Source: a virus
Virus record (IMG/VR): IMGVR_UViG_3300023115_000051
Span: 1-38,380 of that record
Strand: one strand, 5' to 3'
DNA: 38,380 nt
Positions within the stretch are counted from its first letter, which is position 1; every line of letters starts with the position of its first letter. Under the pieces are notes generated by a model. It had not been told where the DNA came from. It saw only the letters and a program-made list of their open reading frames with translations, and searched no databases. The position numbers and the translations under genes were made by a program. Positions 7,941-21,885 of the stretch are shown here, piece by piece.

Positions 7941-8875
7941 TAGAAAGTGATACTCCCTGATCCTGTAAATGTATAAATATTGTAACTGCCATCCGTAGTT
8001 GTAGTTGGCGATCCTGTTGTCGCTACGGCACCGTTTAGTGTTCTAATAATTACAACACCAGAGCCTCCTGCCGCGCCATTTTGATCGCCAGTCTCGAAGC
8101 CGCCGCCGCCACCCCCACCGCCGGTGTTTGCTGTGCCTGCGCCGGGACTAACGGTTCCATCGGATCCATCTCCTCCACCGCCAGCGCCTCCTGATCCAGC
8201 CGTATGGGTATTATAAGTAGGGCCAATACAGCCGCCACCGCCACCGCCTGCGCGAGTTACAGAGGAACCAGTTATAGATGATGCTGTGCCTGCTCCTCCA
8301 GCACCGCCAGTACCACTAGAACCGCCTGTCGCCGCCGCGCCTGTGCCCCCAGCACCACCACCGCCCCCAGCAGGAGAATTAGGGTTTAATCCTTGACCGC
8401 CATTATTACCTTCGGAGGGGCTATAGCTTCCTGCATTACCCGTTCCAGCAGAGCTTGTATCGCTACTGCCGCCACCAGAACCTCCACTATTGCCTGCTGT
8501 TTGGGTTTGGTATGAACCGCCAGCACCACCGCCAGTTGCTGAAAGTGAATTAAAAGTGCTGGTTCCTCCATTAGAACCTCTGGCAGTTCTGCTACCGCCA
8601 GAGCCTCCTGCGCCTACTGTAACGGTATAAGTAGTTCCCTCTACTAGCGTTTGGCTTGTAAATGAGCGATAACCGCCTGCACCACCGCCTCCCGCAATAG
8701 TTCCACCACCACCGCCGCCGCCTGCAATAATTAAGTAATCAAAAGAGTGAAATACTGGCGAAGGCCAATCACCCGCATTTTGCATTTGGGTATCTAAAGC
8801 CCAAACACCACTAAAAACTTTTGGGTCTTCTTCTAGGCCGTTAAAGCCAATAAACCCGCCTTTATCTTTAGCCAC
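7940..8875 (-). CDS. Glycine-rich tail adhesin (copy 1)
   Basis: 311 residues, with the same plan as the paralogue at 6596-7585: an N-terminal module (FSGVWALDTQMQNAGDWPSP, FDYLIIAGGGGGGG), a central part of repeated glycine runs with short variable spacers, and a C-terminus with SGVVIIRTLNGAVATTGSP and TDGSYNIYTFTGSGSITF. The two copies differ most in the spacers between glycine runs, the parts expected to face the receptor. Role as host-recognition tip is inferred from the family of polyglycine phage adhesins. The start at 8875 is preceded by TAGGAG. Confidence 0.85.
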   Translation of the reverse strand: MAKDKGGFIGFNGLEEDPKVFSGVWALDTQMQNAGDWPSPVFHSFDYLIIAGGGGGGGTIAGGGGAGGYRSFTSQTLVEGTTYTVTVGAGGSGGSRTARGSNGGTSTFNSLSATGGGAGGSYQTQTAGNSGGSGGGSSDTSSAGTGNAGSYSPSEGNNGGQGLNPNSPAGGGGGAGGTGAAATGGSSGTGGAGGAGTASSITGSSVTRAGGGGGGCIGPTYNTHTAGSGGAGGGGDGSDGTVSPGAGTANTGGGGGGGGFETGDQNGAAGGSGVVIIRTLNGAVATTGSPTTTTDGSYNIYTFTGSGSITF

Positions 8876-8887
8876 GACTAGCTCCTA

Positions 8888-9262
8888 TTAGCTAATTTCT
8901 TCGTAACTTACGATAACTTCTAGGTCGTTAGCGGTTCCTGCCGTAACTGAAATAGACCGGTCTTCTTCAAGGTAAAGCGCTGTGTTTTTGTCGATAACAA
9001 TCAAAGACGCATCTGCTGGTACTGACACAGTAGACACAAGCGAATACGCTGTACCGCCAATGTCATCTTGAGAGTGGTAATCAACAGTTACGTCGCAGTT
9101 ATTTGTTCCGTCTACGTTGGAAACCTGAATCATGTTTATCTTAAACACTTTACCGCTAGATGCGGCATTACTAACAAGCTGTGTTGCACTTGTGGTAGAT
9201 AAAGCAACAGAAGCTGTTTTACCCGTTATTGTAGATACGTTTACGATATTTGGTGCCGCCAT
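8888..9262 (-). CDS. Beta-rich virion protein (fibre-associated or decoration type)
   Basis: 124 residues, almost entirely beta-strand in character (VNVSTITGKTASVALSTT, VFKINMIQVSNVDGTNNCDVTVDYHS, LVSTVSVPADASLIVID, YLEEDRSISVTAG). Similar small proteins sit next to tail fibre genes in marine myo- and podoviruses and are usually listed as virion structural proteins. A second protein of the same style is encoded at 17839-18186. It lies between the repeat fibre and the glycine-rich adhesins, so a fibre junction or cap role is likely, but not shown by sequence alone. Confidence 0.7.
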   Translation of the reverse strand: MAAPNIVNVSTITGKTASVALSTTSATQLVSNAASSGKVFKINMIQVSNVDGTNNCDVTVDYHSQDDIGGTAYSLVSTVSVPADASLIVIDKNTALYLEEDRSISVTAGTANDLEVIVSYEEIS

Positions 9263-9272
9263 AATTTAGCTC

Positions 9273-10514
9273 CTATCCAAAGACAATAGCCATAGCAATG
9301 GCTTTACCTGTTCCAGCTTTTGAATCTAGCTGGGTTTGAATGTTAGATGTTACCCCGTCAACATAATTTAACTCTGCTGTTGTAGCTGTAACCCCGTCTA
9401 AAATATTAAGTTCTGCCGCAGTAGAAGTAACACCGTTTAATTTAGAAATATCAATCGCCGCGCTAGCGCTAATGTCCGCATTAACAATCACGCCAGAGCC
9501 AATAGCCGCTACGCCTGTATCAGCAATCGTAATGTCACCTGATACTACGTTGTCGATCCACATAGACGTAGCAGTGTCGTAGAACAACAAAGCTCCGTCA
9601 GCCGGGGTTGTTACATTAGTATCTGTTAAACCGCTTAATGTAGTTGACCCGCCAACTTGAGAATCAACATACGCCTTAATAGATTGCTGACTTGCCAATG
9701 CCGTAGCAGAATCGCTAGTCATATCATCTTCATCTAAAAACGCTGTTACACCGTCTAAAACATTTAACTCGCTTGTTGTAGATGTAACTCCGTCTAAGAT
9801 ATTTAATTCTGCAGTTGTGGCCGTAACCCCATCTAGGATGTTTAATTCAGCCGCTGTAGACGTAATTGCTGTGCCGCCAAGGGTTAGAGCGCCTGATACT
9901 GAAAGGCTCGACAAAGTTCCTACAGACGTAATTTGAGTCTGTGCCGCATCAACCGACAAGGTATTTGTCGTAAGGGTTAAACCCGTTCCTGCTGTCAAAG
10001 CAGTCTTTGAGACATCAATAGCCGCACTAGCATTAACATCTGCATTAACGATCACGCCAGAGCCAATAGCGGCTACGCCTGTGTCGGCAATAGTTATATC
10101 ACCGGATACTACGTTATCAATCCACTTAGACGTAGTAGTGTCGTAGAACAACAAAGCTCCGTCAGCCGGAGTTGTTATATTAGTATCTGTAAGCTCTGCG
10201 AGTGTGTCAACTAAAGCAATCTGCGAATCAACATAAGCCTTTACAGATTGTTGTGTAGGTATAAGGGTTGCGCTGTTAGAAGACATATTATCTTCGTCAA
10301 CAAACGCTGTAACTGTAATTGTGCCGTCAGACAAATTATCAAACGTAGCTGTGCCAGTAAAAATAGGACCAGCTAGATCTGCTTTGGTTTCTACAGCGGT
10401 TTGTATTGCGTCAAATTCTGTGTCAAACTCTGAGCCACGGATAACCTTGTTAGTGTCACCCGTAGGCAGAGAATCCTTAACAGTAAAATTAGTAGACTTT
10501 ACGTAATTAGTCAT
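9273..10514 (-). CDS. Tail fibre with TAAELNILDGVT repeats
   Basis: 413 residues. The N-terminus (KSTNFTVKDSLPTGDTNKVIRGSEFDTEFDAI) is the usual start of marine phage fibre proteins. The body holds several TAAELNILDGVT-type repeats and two near-identical segments of about 60 residues beginning LTDTN(I/V)TTPADGALLFYD and ending SAAID(V/I)SK, evidence of internal duplication. It ends with a short KAGTGKAIAMAIVFG without the S74 chaperone domain often found on such fibres. It is the first gene after the post-capsid terminator, so its expression depends on read-through or a separate start. Likely side or tail fibre carrying the adhesin genes that follow. Confidence 0.85.
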   Translation of the reverse strand: MTNYVKSTNFTVKDSLPTGDTNKVIRGSEFDTEFDAIQTAVETKADLAGPIFTGTATFDNLSDGTITVTAFVDEDNMSSNSATLIPTQQSVKAYVDSQIALVDTLAELTDTNITTPADGALLFYDTTTSKWIDNVVSGDITIADTGVAAIGSGVIVNADVNASAAIDVSKTALTAGTGLTLTTNTLSVDAAQTQITSVGTLSSLSVSGALTLGGTAITSTAAELNILDGVTATTAELNILDGVTSTTSELNVLDGVTAFLDEDDMTSDSATALASQQSIKAYVDSQVGGSTTLSGLTDTNVTTPADGALLFYDTATSMWIDNVVSGDITIADTGVAAIGSGVIVNADISASAAIDISKLNGVTSTAAELNILDGVTATTAELNYVDGVTSNIQTQLDSKAGTGKAIAMAIVFG

Positions 10515-10564
10515 AAGGTTATCCTATTAAACTTTTAGTTAAACACCCTGTCATCAAGACGTTT

Positions 10565-10591
10565 AAATAAAAGGGGGCCATTGCGACCCCC
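10565..10591 (-). terminator. Rho-independent terminator after capsid gene
   Basis: On the minus strand, seven-base arms GGGGGTC and GGCCCCC surround the loop GCAAT and are followed by TTTTATTT. It lies 13-39 bases past the major capsid stop, in the same place as the T7 terminator behind gene 10. It would lower expression of fibre and tail genes relative to capsid. Confidence 0.9.
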
Positions 10592-10603
10592 AGAGAGAGT
10601 AGC

Positions 10604-11596
10604 TTACTCGTCGCAAACAGCGAGGATGAATCCTGCTTCGGGACGGTAAGTTTCAACACCGTACAGCGTGTCAGACGTAAACAGCGTAGACAGGTATTCC
10701 TGCTTGTACTGTGTCTGAGAACGTACAGCCAGTTGCTCTGCCATTACCAAAGCATCCTTGTGGAAGAACAAGCAACCACGAGTATCAGCGGTAGAAGCAG
10801 TGTTCTGAGCGGCAACTTCGACAACCGGAGCGTTGCTAGACACGTAAATGTCTACACCGTACAGATTACCAATCAGACCTGACTCAACGCCACGGCCTCC
10901 AACAAAGTCAGAAGACACGTAACGATCAATACCCATGATTGACTTACGAACAGCAGGAGGAATTACGAGAACTCGTCCGTCCATAGGTACGTCAGCATCG
11001 TCCATCAGCTTGATAGCCTCACGGAAGCCAAGGTCAGTGAAGTTGTCACCAGAGGTTACAGTGTCAACAGCGTAAGCCGCAAGGCCAGAAGAGGCATTGA
11101 AGTAGTAGCTGTTGCTGTTTACCCAGTTAGCGCCCGTGTTGGCAGGAGAAGCAGTACGAGTACCGTCACCAAAGCCAGTAGCGGCGTTAATCAGGTCAGT
11201 GTCAACTTGCAGAGCCAGTTGGTAGCCAGCGTCTTCAGTGTAGAACTGTCGCAGAGAAGACAGAGCCTGTACTTCTACGATGTCCTCAATCAGACGAGAG
11301 TACTCAAAGTGACGGTCAACAGTGACAGTCAACTCTGACTCAAGGTTAGCCTGAATAGTTACCGCAACAGCTTCTGCCTTAGCGTTAGCTGATCCACGGA
11401 TGGGCTTAGGAATGTGAATAACGTCACCCTTCTTGCCAGTCATCGACAGACGCTTGACAAGGGGAGCCATCTTCAGGTTCTTTTGGTAAGCGGCGATGAT
11501 TTCATCGGACCAGATTTCGGGGATAAAAGTACCCGCCGCAGTTTTGTCTACTACAGCATTAGCTGTAAAATATGCACCAGAGGTTTCACCAGCCAT
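10604..11596 (-). CDS. Major capsid protein
   Basis: 330 residues, about the size of podovirus capsid proteins with the HK97 fold. Features seen: FIPEIWSDEIIAAYQKNLKMAPLVKRLSM near the N-terminus (about 22-50), a KGDVIHIPKPIRGSANAKAE strand-loop, VDRHFEYSRLIEDIVEVQAL, a long central helix (LRQFYTEDAGYQLALQVDTDL), VPMDGRVLVIPPAVRKSIMG, and a C-terminal GVETYRPEAGFILAVCDE. It follows the scaffold gene and precedes a strong terminator, as expected for the most abundant late protein. The start has a good ribosome site (AAGGAG, 7 bases upstream). Assignment is secure. Confidence 0.93.
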   Translation of the reverse strand: MAGETSGAYFTANAVVDKTAAGTFIPEIWSDEIIAAYQKNLKMAPLVKRLSMTGKKGDVIHIPKPIRGSANAKAEAVAVTIQANLESELTVTVDRHFEYSRLIEDIVEVQALSSLRQFYTEDAGYQLALQVDTDLINAATGFGDGTRTASPANTGANWVNSNSYYFNASSGLAAYAVDTVTSGDNFTDLGFREAIKLMDDADVPMDGRVLVIPPAVRKSIMGIDRYVSSDFVGGRGVESGLIGNLYGVDIYVSSNAPVVEVAAQNTASTADTRGCLFFHKDALVMAEQLAVRSQTQYKQEYLSTLFTSDTLYGVETYRPEAGFILAVCDE

Positions 11597-11619
11597 TTTA
11601 ATTCTCCTTAAATGTTAGG

Positions 11620-12414
11620 CTAGCGTACACGACCCTCTGCGTATGCTTTCAGTAATTCGTCTGAAAGACTTTGGTAACGCTCTGGGTCTGTTCGCATAAG
11701 TTTAATAATGTCAGCACGACGATAAACTTTCTTGCGTGATCCCTCCGCTGTTCCACGAGCGTTGCCTGTACTGGCTGACTTCAGGGTGTTCTTACGTGCC
11801 TGTTTTTCAACGTTGGCGGTCTGCTGTGCTACTGATGCCCTCTCTTTCCAGAGATTAAACAGTTCGTCAGCCGCATCGTAATCGTACCCTTGGTCTGCCT
11901 GAACAAACAACTGTGTTCGGACTTTTGACCCCTTGATCCAATCAGCAAACTTAGGATCTTGCAGTATACTCTCCATATCAGGGTGCTTGGATTTCAACTG
12001 TGAAAGAGTAGCCTGTTGTTTAGCCTGTTGTGTGTAAGCCTGTGCTTCTTTGATCTTAGGGTGGTTGTCTATAGCTCTGTTAACAGCGTTTTGTGGATCT
12101 ACAAAGAAATCTACGTCATCGTCTTCTTGTTGCTGTTGTTGAGGTGCTTGTTGGTTTGAGAGTTGTGTCTGAATGTAGTTGTCAACGACTTTCCGAAGTT
12201 CACCCACTTCCGTACTCTGTTTGCCTGAAAACTTCTCAAGCTCTTGGTGCATCTGTACAAGATCTTCGACAGACTTACCACGGTACTTTTCCGGTATTTC
12301 TGGTTCTTGAGGTTGTTCCTCTTCAGGAGTCTCAATAGAATTTGTGGCTAGTTCTTCAGTTGTTTCCGTTGGTTCCTCTTCAGGACGCTCATCAAGTAAT
12401 TGTGCTCGTGACAT
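11620..12414 (-). CDS. Capsid scaffolding protein
   Basis: 264 residues. Very acidic, Pro/Glu/Thr-rich N-terminus (about 1-55), a helical stretch with KYRGKSVEDLVQMHQELEKF, a Gln-rich coiled part (QTQLSNQQAPQQQQQ), and a basic C-terminus (SRKKVYRRADIIKLMRTDPERYQ) expected to bind the coat protein. This composition and its place immediately before the capsid gene are typical of podovirus scaffolds (T7 gp9-like in role). It would guide procapsid assembly and leave before or during packaging. Confidence 0.88.
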   Translation of the reverse strand: MSRAQLLDERPEEEPTETTEELATNSIETPEEEQPQEPEIPEKYRGKSVEDLVQMHQELEKFSGKQSTEVGELRKVVDNYIQTQLSNQQAPQQQQQEDDDVDFFVDPQNAVNRAIDNHPKIKEAQAYTQQAKQQATLSQLKSKHPDMESILQDPKFADWIKGSKVRTQLFVQADQGYDYDAADELFNLWKERASVAQQTANVEKQARKNTLKSASTGNARGTAEGSRKKVYRRADIIKLMRTDPERYQSLSDELLKAYAEGRVR

Positions 12415-12480
12415 AATGTAAACTTACCCCGCCTATTATTATTAAGGTTATGGAGGATTAAAATGGGAAGTGACCTAAAA

Positions 12481-12702
12481 CTAGGATTCCCGACTAGATC
12501 GCCCAGCTTGCTCGTGTTCACGTACCCACTTCATGTGTCTACCGGGAAAGTCCCCAGAAGCACCGTCGAGGATGTGTTGAGTAGCTGATACGATTTTTGT
12601 AGCGTTGGCTCCACATCCGCACCTACTGGACGTAGTACCGCTCTCTACAAATTCTTCAAAGGTATGTCCGTTTGTACAGCGAAAATCAAATACTTTAATC
12701 AT
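12481..12702 (-). CDS. Zinc-ribbon protein, FmdB-like
   Basis: 73 residues from ATG at 12702 (MIKVFDFRCTNGHTFEEFVE). The longer frame from 12744 is rejected because this ATG overlaps the TAA of the preceding gene (ATGATTAA), a typical coupling. It has a Cys/His pattern RCTNGH...SSRCGCGANATKI, resembling the small zinc ribbons of the FmdB family, and an Arg-rich tail (FPGRHMKWVREHEQAGR). Seen often just before scaffold or capsid genes in marine podoviruses. Function unknown; zinc binding is inferred from the cysteines. Confidence 0.75.
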   Translation of the reverse strand: MIKVFDFRCTNGHTFEEFVESGTTSSRCGCGANATKIVSATQHILDGASGDFPGRHMKWVREHEQAGRSSRES

Positions 12703-12931
12703 CGCTAGTAAACTCTTCGTAGTTGTTATTTGTAGCAGCTTCAAAGTTAATTAGATAAGCTAGTACGTTTAGTTGTCCTTTACGTACGTACAAATCGTTA
12801 CTATCTTTGGTTGCTTCTACACTGTTAATTACGAGAGCATTTTGTTTTAGTTCTTCGATTAACTGCTTCCAACCGGGGTTGTTAAACAGGTCAAAGTAAC
12901 ATTCGTAGTACTTTTGTGTATCTTGATCCAT
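12695..12931 (-). CDS. Conserved small phage protein
   Basis: 78 residues, acidic and helical (MDQDTQKYYECYFDLFNNPGWKQLIEELKQN, then YVRKGQLNVLAYLINFEAA). Proteins of this pattern occur upstream of the scaffold-capsid pair in marine podoviruses; I know no assigned function. It is the first gene behind the strong late promoter at 12968-12996, about 30 bases after the expected transcript start. It overlaps the zinc-ribbon gene by 8 bases. Confidence 0.75.
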   Translation of the reverse strand: MDQDTQKYYECYFDLFNNPGWKQLIEELKQNALVINSVEATKDSNDLYVRKGQLNVLAYLINFEAATNNNYEEFTSDD

Positions 12932-12967
12932 AAGAGGTCTCTTAGATTATCTCTCTATTTACTATAT

Positions 12968-12996
12968 ATTATACCATAAAAAAACTGAAATGTCAA
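12968..12996 (-). promoter_or_regulatory. Strong sigma-70 late promoter, extended -10
   Basis: Minus strand: perfect -35 TTGACA (12996-12991), 17-base spacer ending TGG, perfect -10 TATAAT (12973-12968), preceded by an A-rich stretch. It faces the capsid cluster. The segment AAAAAAGACTTGACATTT is shared with the promoter at 19126-19154. Confidence 0.9.
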
Positions 12997-13076
12997 GTCT
13001 TTTTTCTGGTGGTATTTTTACGTCTTTTGCCTGATGCTGTTACTGCGTGTTTAATCCTGGCTGGTCCTCTAGGCAT
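12993..13076 (-). CDS. Tiny basic protein, 27 residues
   Basis: MPRGPARIKHAVTASGKRRK followed by NTTRKKT; strongly basic. ATG at 13076, with an AAAGGG ribosome-like site in the end of the preceding mini-ORF. Its stop codon falls inside the -35 region of the late promoter. It belongs to a run of short Lys/Arg-rich reading frames (13572 down to 12993), all in the same direction and closely packed, which supports it being real. Possibly a nucleic-acid-binding or capsid-interior peptide; function unknown. Confidence 0.5.
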   Translation of the reverse strand: MPRGPARIKHAVTASGKRRKNTTRKKT

Positions 13077-13078
13077 TG

Positions 13079-13120
13079 TTATTTACCCTTTGGCTTTTTC
13101 TTTTTGCCTTTGTTATACAT
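13079..13120 (-). CDS. Possible 13-residue Lys-rich peptide
   Basis: MYNKGKKKKPKGK, start ATG at 13120 with a good AAGGAG site 7 bases upstream, overlapping the stop of the preceding 56-residue gene. It ends 2 bases before the 27-residue gene begins. Too short to judge by composition; the ribosome site and tight packing are the only support. Confidence 0.3.
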   Translation of the reverse strand: MYNKGKKKKPKGK

Positions 13121-13283
13121 TTGCTTTCTCCTTTGCTTTTTTGGACAAATCCTTGTAGTGGTACAGCTTTACAGAGGTTTTGCTGTGGGTTTTACCTGTG
13201 TGAAGTGAACCATCAGGCATCTTGTGCGTGTTCCCTGACCACAAAGTTCCGTCACGCTTGTAGTGTTTCATGTTTTTAGCCAT
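13113..13283 (-). CDS. Small conserved basic phage protein, 56 residues
   Basis: MAKNMKHYKRDGTLWSGNTH, then KMPDGSLHTGKTHSKTSVKL and a basic helical end. Start ATG at 13283, one base after the stop of the 95-residue gene. Proteins with this HYKRDGTLW...HKMPDG...HTGKTH pattern are familiar from marine phage genomes next to portal and capsid genes. No function is known to me; the basic charge suggests DNA or RNA contact, or packaging with the genome. Confidence 0.7.
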   Translation of the reverse strand: MAKNMKHYKRDGTLWSGNTHKMPDGSLHTGKTHSKTSVKLYHYKDLSKKAKEKANV

Positions 13284-13284
13284 G

Positions 13285-13572
13285 TTACCATTTAACCTTG
13301 TTTGCCCAATAAGCCGCAGAGCATTTGCCTTTGGCTATGTTTTTAGCGTGACGAGCCTTAAAGGACTTACGCCTCGCCTTTTCCTTAGCAGTCTTAGGAC
13401 TCTTTCCAGCACCGCTGACTCCTTGTTGTCCGAATCGAATAGTCTTAACTTTACCGTCTTCACATTTAGCCACAACTACGTGTGACTTCGTTGGGTGATT
13501 AGGCGTCCGCTTTGGCTTGTTGTACCCGCTTACCCCTGCTCGTGCTAGTCTTGGATCCTTTTCCTTGCTCAT
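13285..13572 (-). CDS. Conserved small basic phage protein, 95 residues
   Basis: Starts MSKEKDPRLARAGVSGYNKP, then KRTPNHPTKSHVVVAKCEDG, VKTIRFGQQGVSGAG, and a very basic C-terminal part (KTAKEKARRKSFKARHAKNI) ending SAAYWANKVKW. This family is common in cyanophage and other marine phage genomes; its function is not established as far as I know. It overlaps the portal stop (ATGA-type) and, in another frame, the coiled-coil gene at 13499-13693. The pI must be very high, so nucleic acid binding is plausible. Confidence 0.8.
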   Translation of the reverse strand: MSKEKDPRLARAGVSGYNKPKRTPNHPTKSHVVVAKCEDGKVKTIRFGQQGVSGAGKSPKTAKEKARRKSFKARHAKNIAKGKCSAAYWANKVKW

Positions 13573-13693
13573 TGATTAGCGCCTCCAGTTGGTCCACCTT
13601 GGCTTGCAGGACTTCCAATTTGTCGAACTGATCTTTGAACGCTTGGTTGATTTGGTCTAGGAACTTGGTCATTTCTACTTGTGTCATTAGCAT
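13499..13693 (-). CDS. Overlapping small coiled-coil protein
   Basis: 64 residues: MLMTQVEMTKFLDQINQAFK followed by DQFDKLEVLQAKVDQLEALI, a clear heptad pattern, then a basic tail (SRGKRVQQAKADA). It overlaps the portal C-terminus by 125 bases and the start of the 95-residue gene by 74 bases in a different frame. A GAGGG site lies 11 bases before the ATG at 13693; ATG at 13687 is an alternative. The regular amphipathic helix is not expected by chance, and similar short coiled coils follow portal genes in related phages. The overlapped portal tail is low-complexity (Pro, Gln, Ser, Gly), which would tolerate the double coding. Confidence 0.65.
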   Translation of the reverse strand: MLMTQVEMTKFLDQINQAFKDQFDKLEVLQAKVDQLEALINEQGKGSKTSTSRGKRVQQAKADA

Positions 13694-15596
13694 TGGTACG
13701 TTTACCCTCTATTTGTCGTTCTTTGAGAAGTCGGTCAGCTACTTGTATACGTCGCTCAAACTCTTTGTCTTCTTGATCTCCTTCTTTAAGATTTCTAGTA
13801 ATTGCGTTAATCTTGTCAATTTCTAGTTCTTCAGGAGCAAGTTGAGTTTCCATAGCGTACTTAGCCGCTCTAGCTTGCGACTCGGCAGCTTGTGCAGCCA
13901 AAGCAGCAGTTTGACTTTGCTGGAACTCAAGCTGTGCTTGTTGTGCCATCATAGCCATTTGTTGCGCTTGTGGGTTAGGCTGTGCTGCTTGTTGCATTGT
14001 AGCAATTAACTGTTCACGGTTGCTGAGATTCATGTTGTCAATAATACTTTGAATCAAAACACTGTACAAAGGACTGTCTTGTTGCATAGTCTGCAACAGT
14101 TGCACAAGTTGAGTAACCTCGTATTCACGAGCAATGATACCCAGAGTACTCGTAGCGTTGAACTTATAGTCAGCTACTGGGTAGTTTTCAGGGTCAAACT
14201 GCATGTATCTGTGTGCAGCTTTGGTTACAAAAGGAAGTAAAAAAGACTGTTGGAAGTTTATAAGAGTACGCTTATGACGCTTAATAATAGCACCAAGAGA
14301 CATACTAATACCAGCAGCGGTTGCTTCGCCATTGACTTGTCCCGCAATGCCAGCGGAATCCACGGCTCCAGTTGCTTGTTGCACCATTTGTTGAAGGCTA
14401 GCGGCTTGTGCAAAAGTGATTTGCCCCACTTGCCCAAAGTTGAAAGGTTGAAGTACTTCACGGGGATCTCCATTAGTAAGTATCATCTTGCCGGGGCGAA
14501 CTTCTGGTTTAGCGCCTCTAGGCAACCTAGTCGCATCAATCGCCAGCATCGGATGAATAGTAAGTGACAGTGCGTCAATGCGCGCGCGTAGTTCTGTATC
14601 TAGCGCCTTCTGGCTGTTGTAGCCTTTTTCGCATACTCCTCTGCCCCAGAAACGTCCGGGTACTATGTCCCAAGGAAACGCTACTACAGGTCTATCGTTC
14701 ATCATGTACGGGTTAGCTTCAGCTTTAAGCAGTGTACCGCCGTTAGCAATAACTACAATAGCTTCTACGTACATTGAAGTGTCTTCTACATCTACTCCTT
14801 CAGCCTCTAGCAACTCGCGTGGAACAAGACCGTAGTACTTTGTAAGACGTACTTTGTCGTCGTTGTAAATCGTAAGGTCTTGGTCAGGCTCTAGGTCGCT
14901 GTCGGGCGCAGCAGACTCGATGTAAGCGTCCCTGTAGATGTTTTGTTCTTGCAGTAGTTCTACACTGTGCTTGGACACAAACTCGTCTACAGCAACACCC
15001 ATAGCTTCCTCGATAGACGTAGCTACAGGGTCAATAAGAAAGTTTTGTGGTAACACTGGCTTAAGTTTAACTACAACTCTGTCGGTTACGTTTACGCCTA
15101 CCGCTTGTAGTTGTCCGTCCATAATTGGTTCAGTTGCAGGAGCCATCTCTTTTATTTCTTCGATAACAACTTCACCAATGCCCGTGCCAAAAACAGCAGC
15201 GTTAATCAAGCATTCTGCAACTGCTTTTCGCACTTTGCAAGATTCAAAGTCTTCTGTTAACTTGTTTCGGAGGTACGCAACATCTTGACTGTCTTGATCA
15301 CCAAAGTTATCTTTAATGTCAAACCATTTACCTCTACCGAACGTGGCTTCCTCTAACTCCGCTACGTTAGACTCTACAGCCTGCTGAAGCGCAGGAGAGA
15401 TAATTCTAGAACGTTCTGACGCTCTTTCGGAGTCAGCAGGATCCCATTGACCTCGCCATAGCCTATAGTATTCTTCGAACCGTTGTTCGTAGTTTGATTC
15501 ATAGTGATCTCTCCAGTTTTCACACTTGGTCATCACCCACTTTTCCAGAGACTCCTCAATCATCAAGGGGTCTGGGCTGTAAATTTCTTCTGCCAT
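13569..15596 (-). CDS. Portal protein
   Basis: 675 residues from ATG at 15596, chosen because AGGAG lies 7 bases before it; the longer ATG at 15620 has no ribosome site. Features: ESNYEQRFEEYYRLWRGQWD near residues 33-52, SERSRIISPALQQAVESNVAELEEATFG, NAAVFGTGIGEVVIEE (the usual wing segment), VLPQNFLIDPVA, PVVAFPWDIVPGRFWGRGVCE, and a Gln/Ala-rich C-terminal helix region. These are hallmarks of large podovirus portals, the dodecameric ring through which DNA enters and leaves. It sits downstream of the large terminase and upstream of scaffold and capsid. Confidence 0.92.
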   Translation of the reverse strand: MAEEIYSPDPLMIEESLEKWVMTKCENWRDHYESNYEQRFEEYYRLWRGQWDPADSERASERSRIISPALQQAVESNVAELEEATFGRGKWFDIKDNFGDQDSQDVAYLRNKLTEDFESCKVRKAVAECLINAAVFGTGIGEVVIEEIKEMAPATEPIMDGQLQAVGVNVTDRVVVKLKPVLPQNFLIDPVATSIEEAMGVAVDEFVSKHSVELLQEQNIYRDAYIESAAPDSDLEPDQDLTIYNDDKVRLTKYYGLVPRELLEAEGVDVEDTSMYVEAIVVIANGGTLLKAEANPYMMNDRPVVAFPWDIVPGRFWGRGVCEKGYNSQKALDTELRARIDALSLTIHPMLAIDATRLPRGAKPEVRPGKMILTNGDPREVLQPFNFGQVGQITFAQAASLQQMVQQATGAVDSAGIAGQVNGEATAAGISMSLGAIIKRHKRTLINFQQSFLLPFVTKAAHRYMQFDPENYPVADYKFNATSTLGIIAREYEVTQLVQLLQTMQQDSPLYSVLIQSIIDNMNLSNREQLIATMQQAAQPNPQAQQMAMMAQQAQLEFQQSQTAALAAQAAESQARAAKYAMETQLAPEELEIDKINAITRNLKEGDQEDKEFERRIQVADRLLKERQIEGKRTNANDTSRNDQVPRPNQPSVQRSVRQIGSPASQGGPTGGANQ

Positions 15597-19154: not shown

Positions 19155-19541
19155 GTCTTTTTTTAACTAATTTAACTCTGTATTCCCGCCCAGAAGAAAA
19201 CACAAGTGAAAACAGCAGTTTATCTTACGTAAAAACTACTTTCTTTTCTGGTATTTTTTCTTAAATTGCCCTCTTGCGAACTTGGGTGGCAACCACGCGC
19301 GACGACATCGGCCAACTCGGGGGGCGGGGGGTCTTCAAGGGGGCACCCGTGTCTCTAACTTCCTTAAATGCAGAAACGAGGAAGTCACGGGGCAACGCGA
19401 GGCGCTGGGTCGCATCGGGCAGCACGGGTTGCAACGCGAGAATCCGCGAGAGTGAGAGCCGAGGAAGTACCCTCTGGCAGACACACGACACACCAGACAC
19501 ATCCAGCAAAGTTGGCACGGTTTGTGCTTAAGTGCTCCCGA

Positions 19542-19594
19542 AGTGATCAAAATTTAACCAGTTGGTGCGATTAAGTGGTCAAAATTTAACCAGT
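19542..19594. promoter_or_regulatory. Paired palindromic boxes, candidate operator
   Basis: Two 21-base copies, 19542-19562 and 19574-19594, differ at one base and lie 32 bases apart (three helical turns). Each contains RTCAAAATTTAACC; the second forms a near-palindrome with arms GGT and ACC around AAAATTT. This suits binding of a dimer at two phased sites. No repressor gene is recognised, so a host protein or an early phage protein would be the partner. Confidence 0.55.
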
Positions 19595-19695
19595 GGATTT
19601 TGTAGTAATCTGATGCACGTTTACATTTTTCAAGGGTTCAAACCGTTTGTAAGTCACTGATTTACCGTGAGATTAAAAAAAAGTTAAAAAAAGTC

Positions 19696-19723
19696 TTGCA
19701 ATCTCTGAACCACTCGATATGGT
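19696..19723 (+). promoter_or_regulatory. Probable early rightward promoter
   Basis: TTGCAA (19696-19701) follows an A-tract; 16 bases on lies TATGGT (19718-19723). The -35 and the bases after it (TTGCAATC) match the promoter at 23891. The -10 is weak, so confidence is moderate; a promoter for the early arm is expected here. Confidence 0.45.
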
Positions 19724-19937
19724 GGCCCTGTCTCGGCGGATGTCGCTACCGGCTCACCGGAAAGCCCCAAAGAGACCCCTCGCAGAGGTTAGAGGGTTGT
19801 GGGTACTAGTACGGGACAGAGGCAATCCAAAGTCCCCGAACGCCAAAGTAAGCAACACGCGTCAGAGGTTGCAGAGGGTAATCCGCCTTCGACACTGGTA
19901 ACGGCTCACCGTAGCCTGTTAGACGTTCAACGGATCA

Positions 19938-19955
19938 ACTAGGGATTGCCCTAGT
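19938..19955. repeat. Perfect hairpin in early leader
   Basis: ACTAGGG and CCCTAGT (7 bp) enclose ATTG. One of several strong hairpins between the early promoter and the first early gene. Confidence 0.7.
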
Positions 19956-20016
19956 CCAGAGAGCCATCCGACAGAGGGTAAACCAGCGCTCAACGCGAGC
20001 GTCCAGTGAGATACTC

Positions 20017-20141
20017 CTACCGCTCCGCTTGAGCGCATCGGGAACCGCAACGGGCAGACAATCCACACGGTAACCACTCGCGCAACCCTACCGCAACGGG
20101 CAGACAATCCACGCAACTGGGAAGATAGCGGAGCGCGTAGG
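20017..20141 (+). ncRNA. Structured early leader with 22-base direct repeat
   Basis: A long-range stem pairs CCTAC + GCTCCGCT (20017-20030) with AGCGGAGC + GTAGG (20127-20141), 13 bp with one small internal loop. It encloses two exact 22-base copies starting CCGCAACGGGCAGACAAT at 20045 and 20091. Together with neighbouring hairpins this suggests a structured untranslated leader or an origin-like element. No known RNA family is recognised. Confidence 0.45.
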
Positions 20142-20207
20142 GTATCGCCAAAGGGCACAGACGATGTGTCTTTTGTTGATACTCTACAACAACACGGAGC
20201 ATTTAAA

Positions 20208-20609
20208 ATGCAACAGAAATACGACGGCACTATGCACCAAACGATCATGCAGTACCGCGAGAACGGTTGCTGTACAGTGGTTGCACTGGCTTGCACAATG
20301 GATTGGTCATTCGGCAAAGCGCATCGCCACATGGCAAAGCATGGCCGCAAGAATCGTTGCGGAATGCGGATGTCGGTCTGGTTGCCAGCACTGCGCGAAG
20401 CCGCAGAAAAAGAGGGCAAAACGATCTCGCACGTTGACTTTGCAACAGGCATGACAATCAATCGGTTTGCCAAGACTTACCGCAAGGGTACTTTCTACGT
20501 CAGAGTCAACAAACACGCGCTTGCGATTGTTGACGGAGTGATGCAAGATTGGACAGCAAATACGGCAGGACGCCGAAAAATCTTAAACTGCTTTAGAATC
20601 GAGGGATAA
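20208..20609 (+). CDS. Early protein with papain-like fold signature
   Basis: 133 residues from ATG at 20208, preceded by GGAG at 8 bases; a GTG at 20166 in frame has no ribosome site. The pattern YRENGCCTVVALACTMDW, NRCGM, FYVRVNKHALAIVDG and DWTANTAGRRK places a cysteine (C22) at the head of a helix, a histidine (H103) on a strand and an aspartate (D114) before Trp, the order of a papain-like or C39-like cysteine peptidase triad. Proteins of this kind are found among small early genes of T7-like marine phages. It is the first gene of the early arm, so a host-takeover role is likely. Proteolysis itself is unproven. Confidence 0.6.
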   Translation: MQQKYDGTMHQTIMQYRENGCCTVVALACTMDWSFGKAHRHMAKHGRKNRCGMRMSVWLPALREAAEKEGKTISHVDFATGMTINRFAKTYRKGTFYVRVNKHALAIVDGVMQDWTANTAGRRKILNCFRIEG

Positions 20610-20612
20610 ACA

Positions 20613-20837
20613 ATGGACGCAGAAACAAAGTTAAGACTAATCAACGAACAGATCGACCGATACCTGACGCAGATGCGAGCATTTGCTACGGGAGACAAAG
20701 AGGAGGCGAAACGATACAGGCAAAAAGACATGCACGAAATGGCAGAATGGAAAGAGGGTCGATACGCCGGTTACCAACACGCCGCGAACGCCCTTGTTAA
20801 CCGTCTTAAGATGATCGACGACAGTTTCCGACTTTAA
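20613..20837 (+). CDS. Small helical early protein
   Basis: 74 residues: MDAETKLRLINEQIDRYLTQ, MRAFATGDKEEAKRYRQKDM, EGRYAGYQHAANALVNRLKM. Predicted all-helical and highly charged. Start ATG at 20613 after GAGGGAT. I recognise no family. Its stop codon is one base before the hammerhead ribozyme, so self-cleavage would leave this message with a defined 3' end. Confidence 0.7.
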   Translation: MDAETKLRLINEQIDRYLTQMRAFATGDKEEAKRYRQKDMHEMAEWKEGRYAGYQHAANALVNRLKMIDDSFRL

Positions 20838-20838
20838 A

Positions 20839-20895
20839 ACCTACTGATGAGCATTGCGGGAGCAAGCGAAACGCGCCGGAGGTGCGCGTCTAGGT
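20839..20895 (+). ncRNA. Type I hammerhead ribozyme
   Basis: All conserved core bases are present. Stem I: ACCTA (20839-20843) with TAGGT (20891-20895). Core CTGATGA (20844-20850). Stem II (20851-20867): GC-A-TTGC and GCAAGC, with a single bulged A and a GGGA (GNRA) tetraloop. GAA (20868-20870). Stem III: ACGCGC (20871-20876) with GCGCGT (20884-20889) and a 7-base loop. C17 is C20890, so the predicted cut is between 20890 and 20891 (GUC site). Stem I is the open helix, defining type I. The cut would separate the upstream early gene from the next one, leaving a 30-base leader with GGGAGG before ATG 20921. Confidence 0.9.
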
Positions 20896-20920
20896 AACCA
20901 ACAATCTGGGAGGATTGACG

Positions 20921-21220
20921 ATGTGCAAACAAACAGGGCGCACAGTTGTAGCGCCAACCAAGAAAGGCGCACGGGTTTGGCTTCAGGGACTAGAGTCTCT
21001 GGGCTGGGCTGGTGGCACACGGTACAACGTACAGTTTCACGACGGCTTTGTCACACTGTCACGATGTGCAGACGGTAAGCGCAAAGTCACGCCAAGCAAA
21101 GGCGGAGTCATTGACCTTGAGTCAAAGAAAATTGCACAGGTGTTTGAAGGTTGCGGACAGGTTGCGTACCACGTAAACTGCGACACCATAAACGTATTCA
21201 AATTGACCTTGGAGGGCTAA
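20921..21220 (+). CDS. Early protein with SymE/AbrB-like segment
   Basis: 99 residues from ATG at 20921, preceded by GGGAGG at 7 bases; the in-frame TTG at 20915 is not favoured. The stretch ARVWLQGLESLGWAGGTRYN followed by VQFHDGFVTLS matches the pattern of swapped-hairpin proteins of the SymE/MazE/AbrB kind (W-L-x-x-x-G-W-x-x-G-x-x-x-x-V...G-x-V-x-L). The remainder contains KRKVTPSKGGVIDLESKKI and a beta-rich end. Such proteins bind DNA or RNA or act in toxin-antitoxin pairs. The assignment is by eye only. Its message begins at the hammerhead cut site. Confidence 0.55.
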   Translation: MCKQTGRTVVAPTKKGARVWLQGLESLGWAGGTRYNVQFHDGFVTLSRCADGKRKVTPSKGGVIDLESKKIAQVFEGCGQVAYHVNCDTINVFKLTLEG

Positions 21221-21660: not shown

Positions 21661-21885
21661 GGGGGTTGTCTTTCTGGTGGGCATCTGTTAAGGTGTCCAC
21701 TGGTAAGCCAACCGGAGTTTTTAAGTATGTCTCTCGTCTGGTAACGCTTGCTGTAGACTCCTCTGGGATTAAGCGAAGCCGGTAGCCTGTAAAACTACGT
21801 CAAAGGGTAGCAGGATTGATCCCCTGTTTATCTGGAGAGCGAGAGACATTCTTAAACACTTCAACCAACCAACAGAGGGTAAAAC
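21661..21885 (+). ncRNA. Candidate structured RNA between early genes
   Basis: 225 bases without a gene. Two nested units are seen. First, GGTTG (21664-21668) with CAACC (21709-21713) encloses GGTGGGCA (21676-21683) paired with TGTCCACT (21694-21701). Second, 21721-21736 (TTAAGTATGTCTCTCG) pairs with 21840-21855 (CGAGAGACATTCTTAA) at 15 of 16 positions, enclosing 103 bases that contain GGATTGATCC, CGCTT/AAGCG and CTAC/GTAG pairs. No known RNA class is recognised; it is not a tRNA. The ribosome site of the next gene lies just after the long stem. Confidence 0.55.

Follow-up and report, generated by a model that had tools for sequence, protein, structure and literature searches.

By its bases and its stems, the element at positions 20839-20895 (plus strand) of the 38,380-base viral record analysed here, the whole of which we refer to as the window, is a genuine type I hammerhead ribozyme. 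It probably works as such and, with no host enzyme involved, cuts the polycistronic early message of the phage at the junction between two genes. The coordinates of the ribozyme, its flanking genes and a further repeated element are given in Table 1.

The ribozyme is complete, and reads ACCUA CUGAUGA GC(a)UUGC GGGA GCAAGC GAA A CGCGC CGGAGGU GCGCG U C UAGGU, in which all the core bases and three stems are present. This is the hammerhead pattern CUGANGA...GAA(A)...UH, with the A15.1-U16.1 pair in place and an H17 that is not G, and the three helices meet at the core with every adjacent pair intact. Stem I is open and loops close stems II and III, as in the type I topology. A sequence-only reading of the window had named a type I hammerhead at these coordinates, and the bases and stems read directly bear it out. 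Since C17 is position 20890, the cut is predicted between C20890 and U20891.

Table 1. Features of the ribozyme and its surroundings (window positions unless a locus is named)
Feature	Position	Strand	Remarks
147-aa ORF (phrog_3754)	20166..20609	+	first early-operon gene; shared anchor of hammerhead-bearing relatives
74-aa ORF	20613..20837	+	TAA 20835-20837; ends 1 nt before stem I
Stem I, 5' strand ACCTA	20839..20843	+	pairs with 20891-20895
Catalytic core CUGAUGA (C3-A9)	20844..20850	+	from sequence; invariant in orthologues
Stem II, GC(a)TTGC/GCAAGC, 6 bp	20851..20867	+	bulged A20853; GGGA loop 20858-20861; three two-sided compensated pairs
Core GAA (G12-A14)	20868..20870	+	from sequence; invariant in orthologues
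Stem III and A15.1-U16.1	20871..20889	+	A15.1 = 20871, paired with U16.1 = 20889; 5 further G-C/C-G pairs, arms CGCGC/GCGCG (20872-20876 with 20884-20888); 7-nt loop 20877-20883; stem invariant in orthologues
C17	20890..20890	+	predicted cut 20890/20891; position from hammerhead fold
Stem I, 3' strand TAGGT	20891..20895	+	predicted 5' end (5'-OH) of downstream message
Leader on downstream product	20891..20920	+	30 nt; phage hammerhead median 26 nt
Shine-Dalgarno-like GGGAGG	20908..20913	+	ends 7 nt before ATG 20921; 18 nt after cut
99-aa ORF (earlier called 'SymE-like'; MCKQ start)	20921..21220	+	ATG 20921 backed by MCK start of relatives
GGTTG..GTGGGCATCnnnTAnGGTGTCCAC..CCAAC hairpin sites	21664-21713; L254 1058, 1356; L298 3332; L309 4664

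No strand among the 7,092 obtained from 3,546 dinucleotide-preserving shuffles of the window (both strands) carried at least 5, 6 and 5 bp in stems I, II and III, respectively; the loosest descriptor gave 15 matches in the same set. A covariance model (R1) built from 25 other phage hammerheads, with the family of the window excluded, scores positions 20838-20896 at 32.6 bits (E = 6.8e-9); no other match in the window is significant, the next having E = 0.47. Of 34 loci from this phage group, three score: the window and the loci L037 and L249.

A search of the window against Rfam gave no model at its gathering threshold. Below threshold, the best curated model by correct register is RAGATH-1-hammerhead (RF03152; 21 bits vs. 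a gathering threshold of 56.3), with which the core, stem I and stem III align; at the model's stem II loop and at two of its upstream-helix positions, the fit fails. Hammerhead_II scored 26 bits, partly on unrelated downstream bases, and was rejected because its third part is the coding start of the next gene, without which the score is 17 bits. Nine other loci with clear phage hammerheads likewise gave no Rfam gathering match. Thus, the Rfam miss is a gap in model coverage and not counter-evidence, and current Rfam thresholds overlook this hammerhead group. The sequence-only reading had counted the lack of a bit-score hit, together with a lack of cleavage in Mg2+, as evidence against a ribozyme; such a lack is found only for the curated Rfam thresholds, which miss the whole group, while R1 finds the element.

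Two diverged orthologues, in L037 (on the same contig as L250) and L249, keep every pair of the structure. They lie in the same operon, where a homologue of the 147-aa first gene is on one side and a homologue of the MENVTR gene on the other. Across the three orthologues, the outer pair of stem I is A-U, G-U and G-C, and three pairs of stem II have changes on both sides. This brings the pairs with two-sided compensatory changes to four, with all 51 cells paired (100%); it should be noted that the counts are small, as they rest on three sequences, and that 16 of 500 shuffles match the observed hammerhead score. When the partner strand is slid as a control, the compensation signal is abolished and none is seen. 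A stem that is maintained would be expected to show this pattern, which indicates that the hammerhead fold is under selection. Stem covariation in relatives, which the sequence-only reading had proposed to look for, is therefore present in L037 and L249, and the changed core and unconserved stems that it had set against its own proposal are not what the orthologues have: the core is invariant and the stems are kept. The 25 phage hammerheads of R1 share the same structure, although covariation in that set is partly by construction, since the sequences were chosen by stem.

Along the message, the order is stop codon, ribozyme, cut, Shine-Dalgarno (SD) sequence and start. The ribozyme was rightly placed by the earlier reading directly after the stop of a small gene and 30 nt before ATG 20921, with the SD intact on the 3' product. 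The 74-aa ORF upstream has no family match in Pfam or PHROGs, and is found only in the near-identical loci L002 and L009. The 'SymE-like' label given to the 99-aa ORF downstream found no support: neither Pfam nor PHROGs gave any match at E 0.1, to the SymE toxin family or otherwise, and a profile search against solved structures returned noise only.

The genes next to the ribozyme change between relatives. In the orthologues, the upstream gene encodes a MYLSK protein with no similarity to the 74-aa protein of the window, and the downstream gene differs in all three (99-aa MCKQ in the window, 73-aa MFDYINAY and 118-aa MSAYSEAV). Since the adjacent genes differ while the ribozyme stays, it belongs to the junction and not to one gene. 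A special role in controlling the 'SymE-like' gene, as had been suggested, is unlikely because the ribozymes of L037 and L249 precede different genes. In other phages, relatives of the 99-aa gene have neither the ribozyme nor the 74-aa gene, and in most of those with upstream sequence the gene is instead directly preceded by an imperfect hairpin that is conserved (GTGGGCA...TGTCCAC). The ribozyme is also missing from close relatives of the phage, and is thus not essential to this phage group.

The replication genes of the window are on the plus strand and include those for a primase/helicase, a DNA polymerase, a Cas4-type exonuclease and a ribonucleotide reductase. By helicase, the closest named phages are Pelagibacter and Roseobacter phages (~45-47% identity), and a DNA-level search of isolated phages gave no match to the window. 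No RNA polymerase was found among the large ORFs scanned, which is compatible with transcription driven by the host RNA polymerase but is not proof of it. Sigma-70 promoters and terminators near the ribozyme were no more frequent than in shuffles.

Viral contigs were then searched with a core-only pattern (TACTGATGAG...CGAAAC...GTCTA), which biases the collection towards this variant of the core. All three stems were found in 114 of 127 core-pattern matches in viral contigs, among the matches listed, and the same pattern gave 28 matches, 12 of them with stems, in 257 Gb of bacterial and archaeal genomes. At least 146 distinct phage hammerheads were collected from viral loci, of which 140 were testable for layout. 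Among the matches listed, a same-strand stop lies within -20 to +14 nt of stem I in 114/140, with the end of the stop at most 1 nt from stem I in 63/140, and a start follows 8-70 nt after the cut in 132/140 (median 26 nt). Both the same-strand stop and the start are present in 107/140 of these matches, compared to 12/138 in antisense and 5.7% at random positions. The presence of more than 100 phage hammerheads at like gene boundaries suggests that phages use them to split multi-gene messages. A scan of all viral contigs with a hairpin core pattern was discarded, the pattern being too short and its matches mostly due to chance. In one 22,483-base record (L096), 15 hammerhead matches (weakest E = 7e-4) are found on one strand within 6.3 kb (8352-14667), apparently at nearly every gene junction, and most have an AGGAGG-like ribosome site soon after the cut.

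We propose that, once the upstream ribosome and RNA polymerase have moved past the ribozyme, the RNA would soon cut itself. The upstream message would then end in the stem II and stem III hairpins with a 2',3'-cyclic phosphate, and the downstream message would start with a 5'-OH and a 30-nt leader that holds an intact ribosome site. These ends would be expected to resist 3' exonucleases and the 5'-monophosphate-sensing RNase E, so that the adjacent genes would get separately stable messages. It has been reported that 5'-hydroxylated RNA is a poor RNase E substrate (PMC4191395), and E. coli seems to be without a kinase for hammerhead-made 5'-OH ends, which is cited as unpublished data (PMC4191395). 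As the upstream stop is close, a ribosome terminating there would sit over stem I and some of the core; cutting would therefore probably wait for ribosome release.

Message processing is the best-supported inference, given that about three quarters of the 140 phage hammerheads have the same layout, although the layout alone is no proof of it because any non-coding element has to lie between genes. An active hammerhead could also have no regulatory role and be carried along as a passenger, neutral or weakly harmful, by gene cassettes that entered the early region. That the ribozyme is patchy and absent from most relatives of the phage, that the genes around it change and that mobile elements are rich in self-cleaving ribozymes (PMC6155905, PMC7761336) all agree with a passenger. 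We nevertheless consider this unlikely: the compensatory changes in stems I and II show that the fold is maintained, and the tight stop-ribozyme-SD-start layout recurs in more than 100 phage cases among the matches listed, where a single contig can have as many as 15 hammerheads on one strand.

Less probable still is that another fold is the one used. For the window as for L037 and L249, energy models favour a long hairpin by 3-5 kcal/mol over the hammerhead; it extends stem I by GAUG/CGUC and GCAUU/GGUGC pairs and is the fold of minimum energy. Perhaps as an RNase III site or the off state of a switch, it would leave the hammerhead inactive or conditional, and relatives that lack the ribozyme do have a conserved hairpin immediately ahead of the gene that follows it in the window. 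However, the energy models ignore the core and the tertiary contacts, and stem II forms first during transcription. Moreover, the long hairpin has no covariation beyond the shared stem I pair (340/500 shuffles are as good), in contrast to the three compensated stem II pairs of the hammerhead; a switch using the lower-energy hairpin was rejected for want of such backing. Most other phage hammerheads folded here are without a minimum-energy rival hairpin of this kind, unlike this subfamily. Finally, the ribozyme might mainly serve the downstream gene, as a leader that sets its translation or timing, and the length left after the cut is indeed short and uniform (median 26 nt, among the matches listed). 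We regard this as highly improbable, since the downstream gene is a different one in each of the three orthologues and the SD lies outside the ribozyme, where it is accessible both before and after cutting.

Cleavage of the window ribozyme may nonetheless be modest in rate, as its family has little of a tertiary contact found elsewhere. In 11 phage hammerheads whose stem I is short and whose loop II is long, that loop can form 4 bp with the tail that directly follows stem I. This UGGN/NCCA pairing has matching changes (UGAU/AUCA, UGGC/GCCA) and is reached by 0 of 5,000 shuffles, a figure that is indicative, the cases having been picked by eye from short-stem I classes. The covarying 4-bp pseudoknot between loop II and the start of the downstream message marks a type I subclass that includes L117, L105, L090, L033, L014, L079 and L082. 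It agrees with the loop II pseudoknot described in 2011 for phage hammerheads (PMC3088659). In the family of the window, the pairing is reduced to at most GG/CC.

The proposed cut can be compared with known systems. In T7 early mRNA, RNase III cuts between small genes just before ribosome sites and leaves structured 3' ends. The cut proposed here would likewise fall before ribosome sites in an early polycistronic phage message; however, a host protein acts on hairpins in T7, whereas in the window the RNA itself would act, with predicted 5'-OH and 2',3'-cyclic phosphate ends. Hammerheads that flank single phage genes, often several of them, were described in 2011 together with the proposal that they cut long phage transcripts (PMC3088659), and activity was shown for clustered cases (Perreault et al. 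2011, PMC3088659). The window ribozyme shares the core, the topology and the location at phage gene junctions with these bacterial and phage type I hammerheads. Its subfamily departs from the 2011 set in its stem I of 5 bp and its stem II of 6 bp, which has a bulged A and is capped by GGGA; it also has no clear pseudoknot at loop II, and the phage whose early operon contains it is an uncultured marine one. What prokaryotic and phage hammerheads do is still listed as an open question in reviews (PMC6155905, PMC10085705). The stop-ribozyme-SD-start layout in more than 100 phage cases makes the 2011 processing idea a quantitative, testable rule. Within the open-licence literature, our sequence comparisons would add to the 2011 work this quantified placement rule, clade-level covariation, independence from particular genes and the 15-fold array.

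More tentatively, tailed phages might make widespread use of host-independent dicing, in which a stop abuts stem I and the cut falls ~26 nt before the next start, yielding single-gene messages from up to 15 ribozymes in a row; here, the hammerhead would have replaced the conserved and maybe protein-processed hairpin of the relatives. We consider this broader picture possible, and less secure than message processing at the junction in the window.

Several other elements were observed. A conserved hairpin of 45-50 nt (GGTTG..GTGGGCATCnnnTAnGGTGTCCAC..CCAAC) is repeated at gene junctions of this phage group, and also reads as a -35, a 17-nt spacer and an extended -10; it could serve as a promoter, as an RNase III site or in both ways. 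Between divergent gene blocks, positions 19270-20160 of the window are GC-rich and non-coding-looking, with the short direct repeat CGCAACGGGCAGACAATCCAC present twice, and are a possible origin or control region. Type I hammerhead-like elements are also found in Legionella (L330, L333, L345 and L347), in several species and with a similar downstream tail ending in TGGACG, where they apparently form a repeated element.
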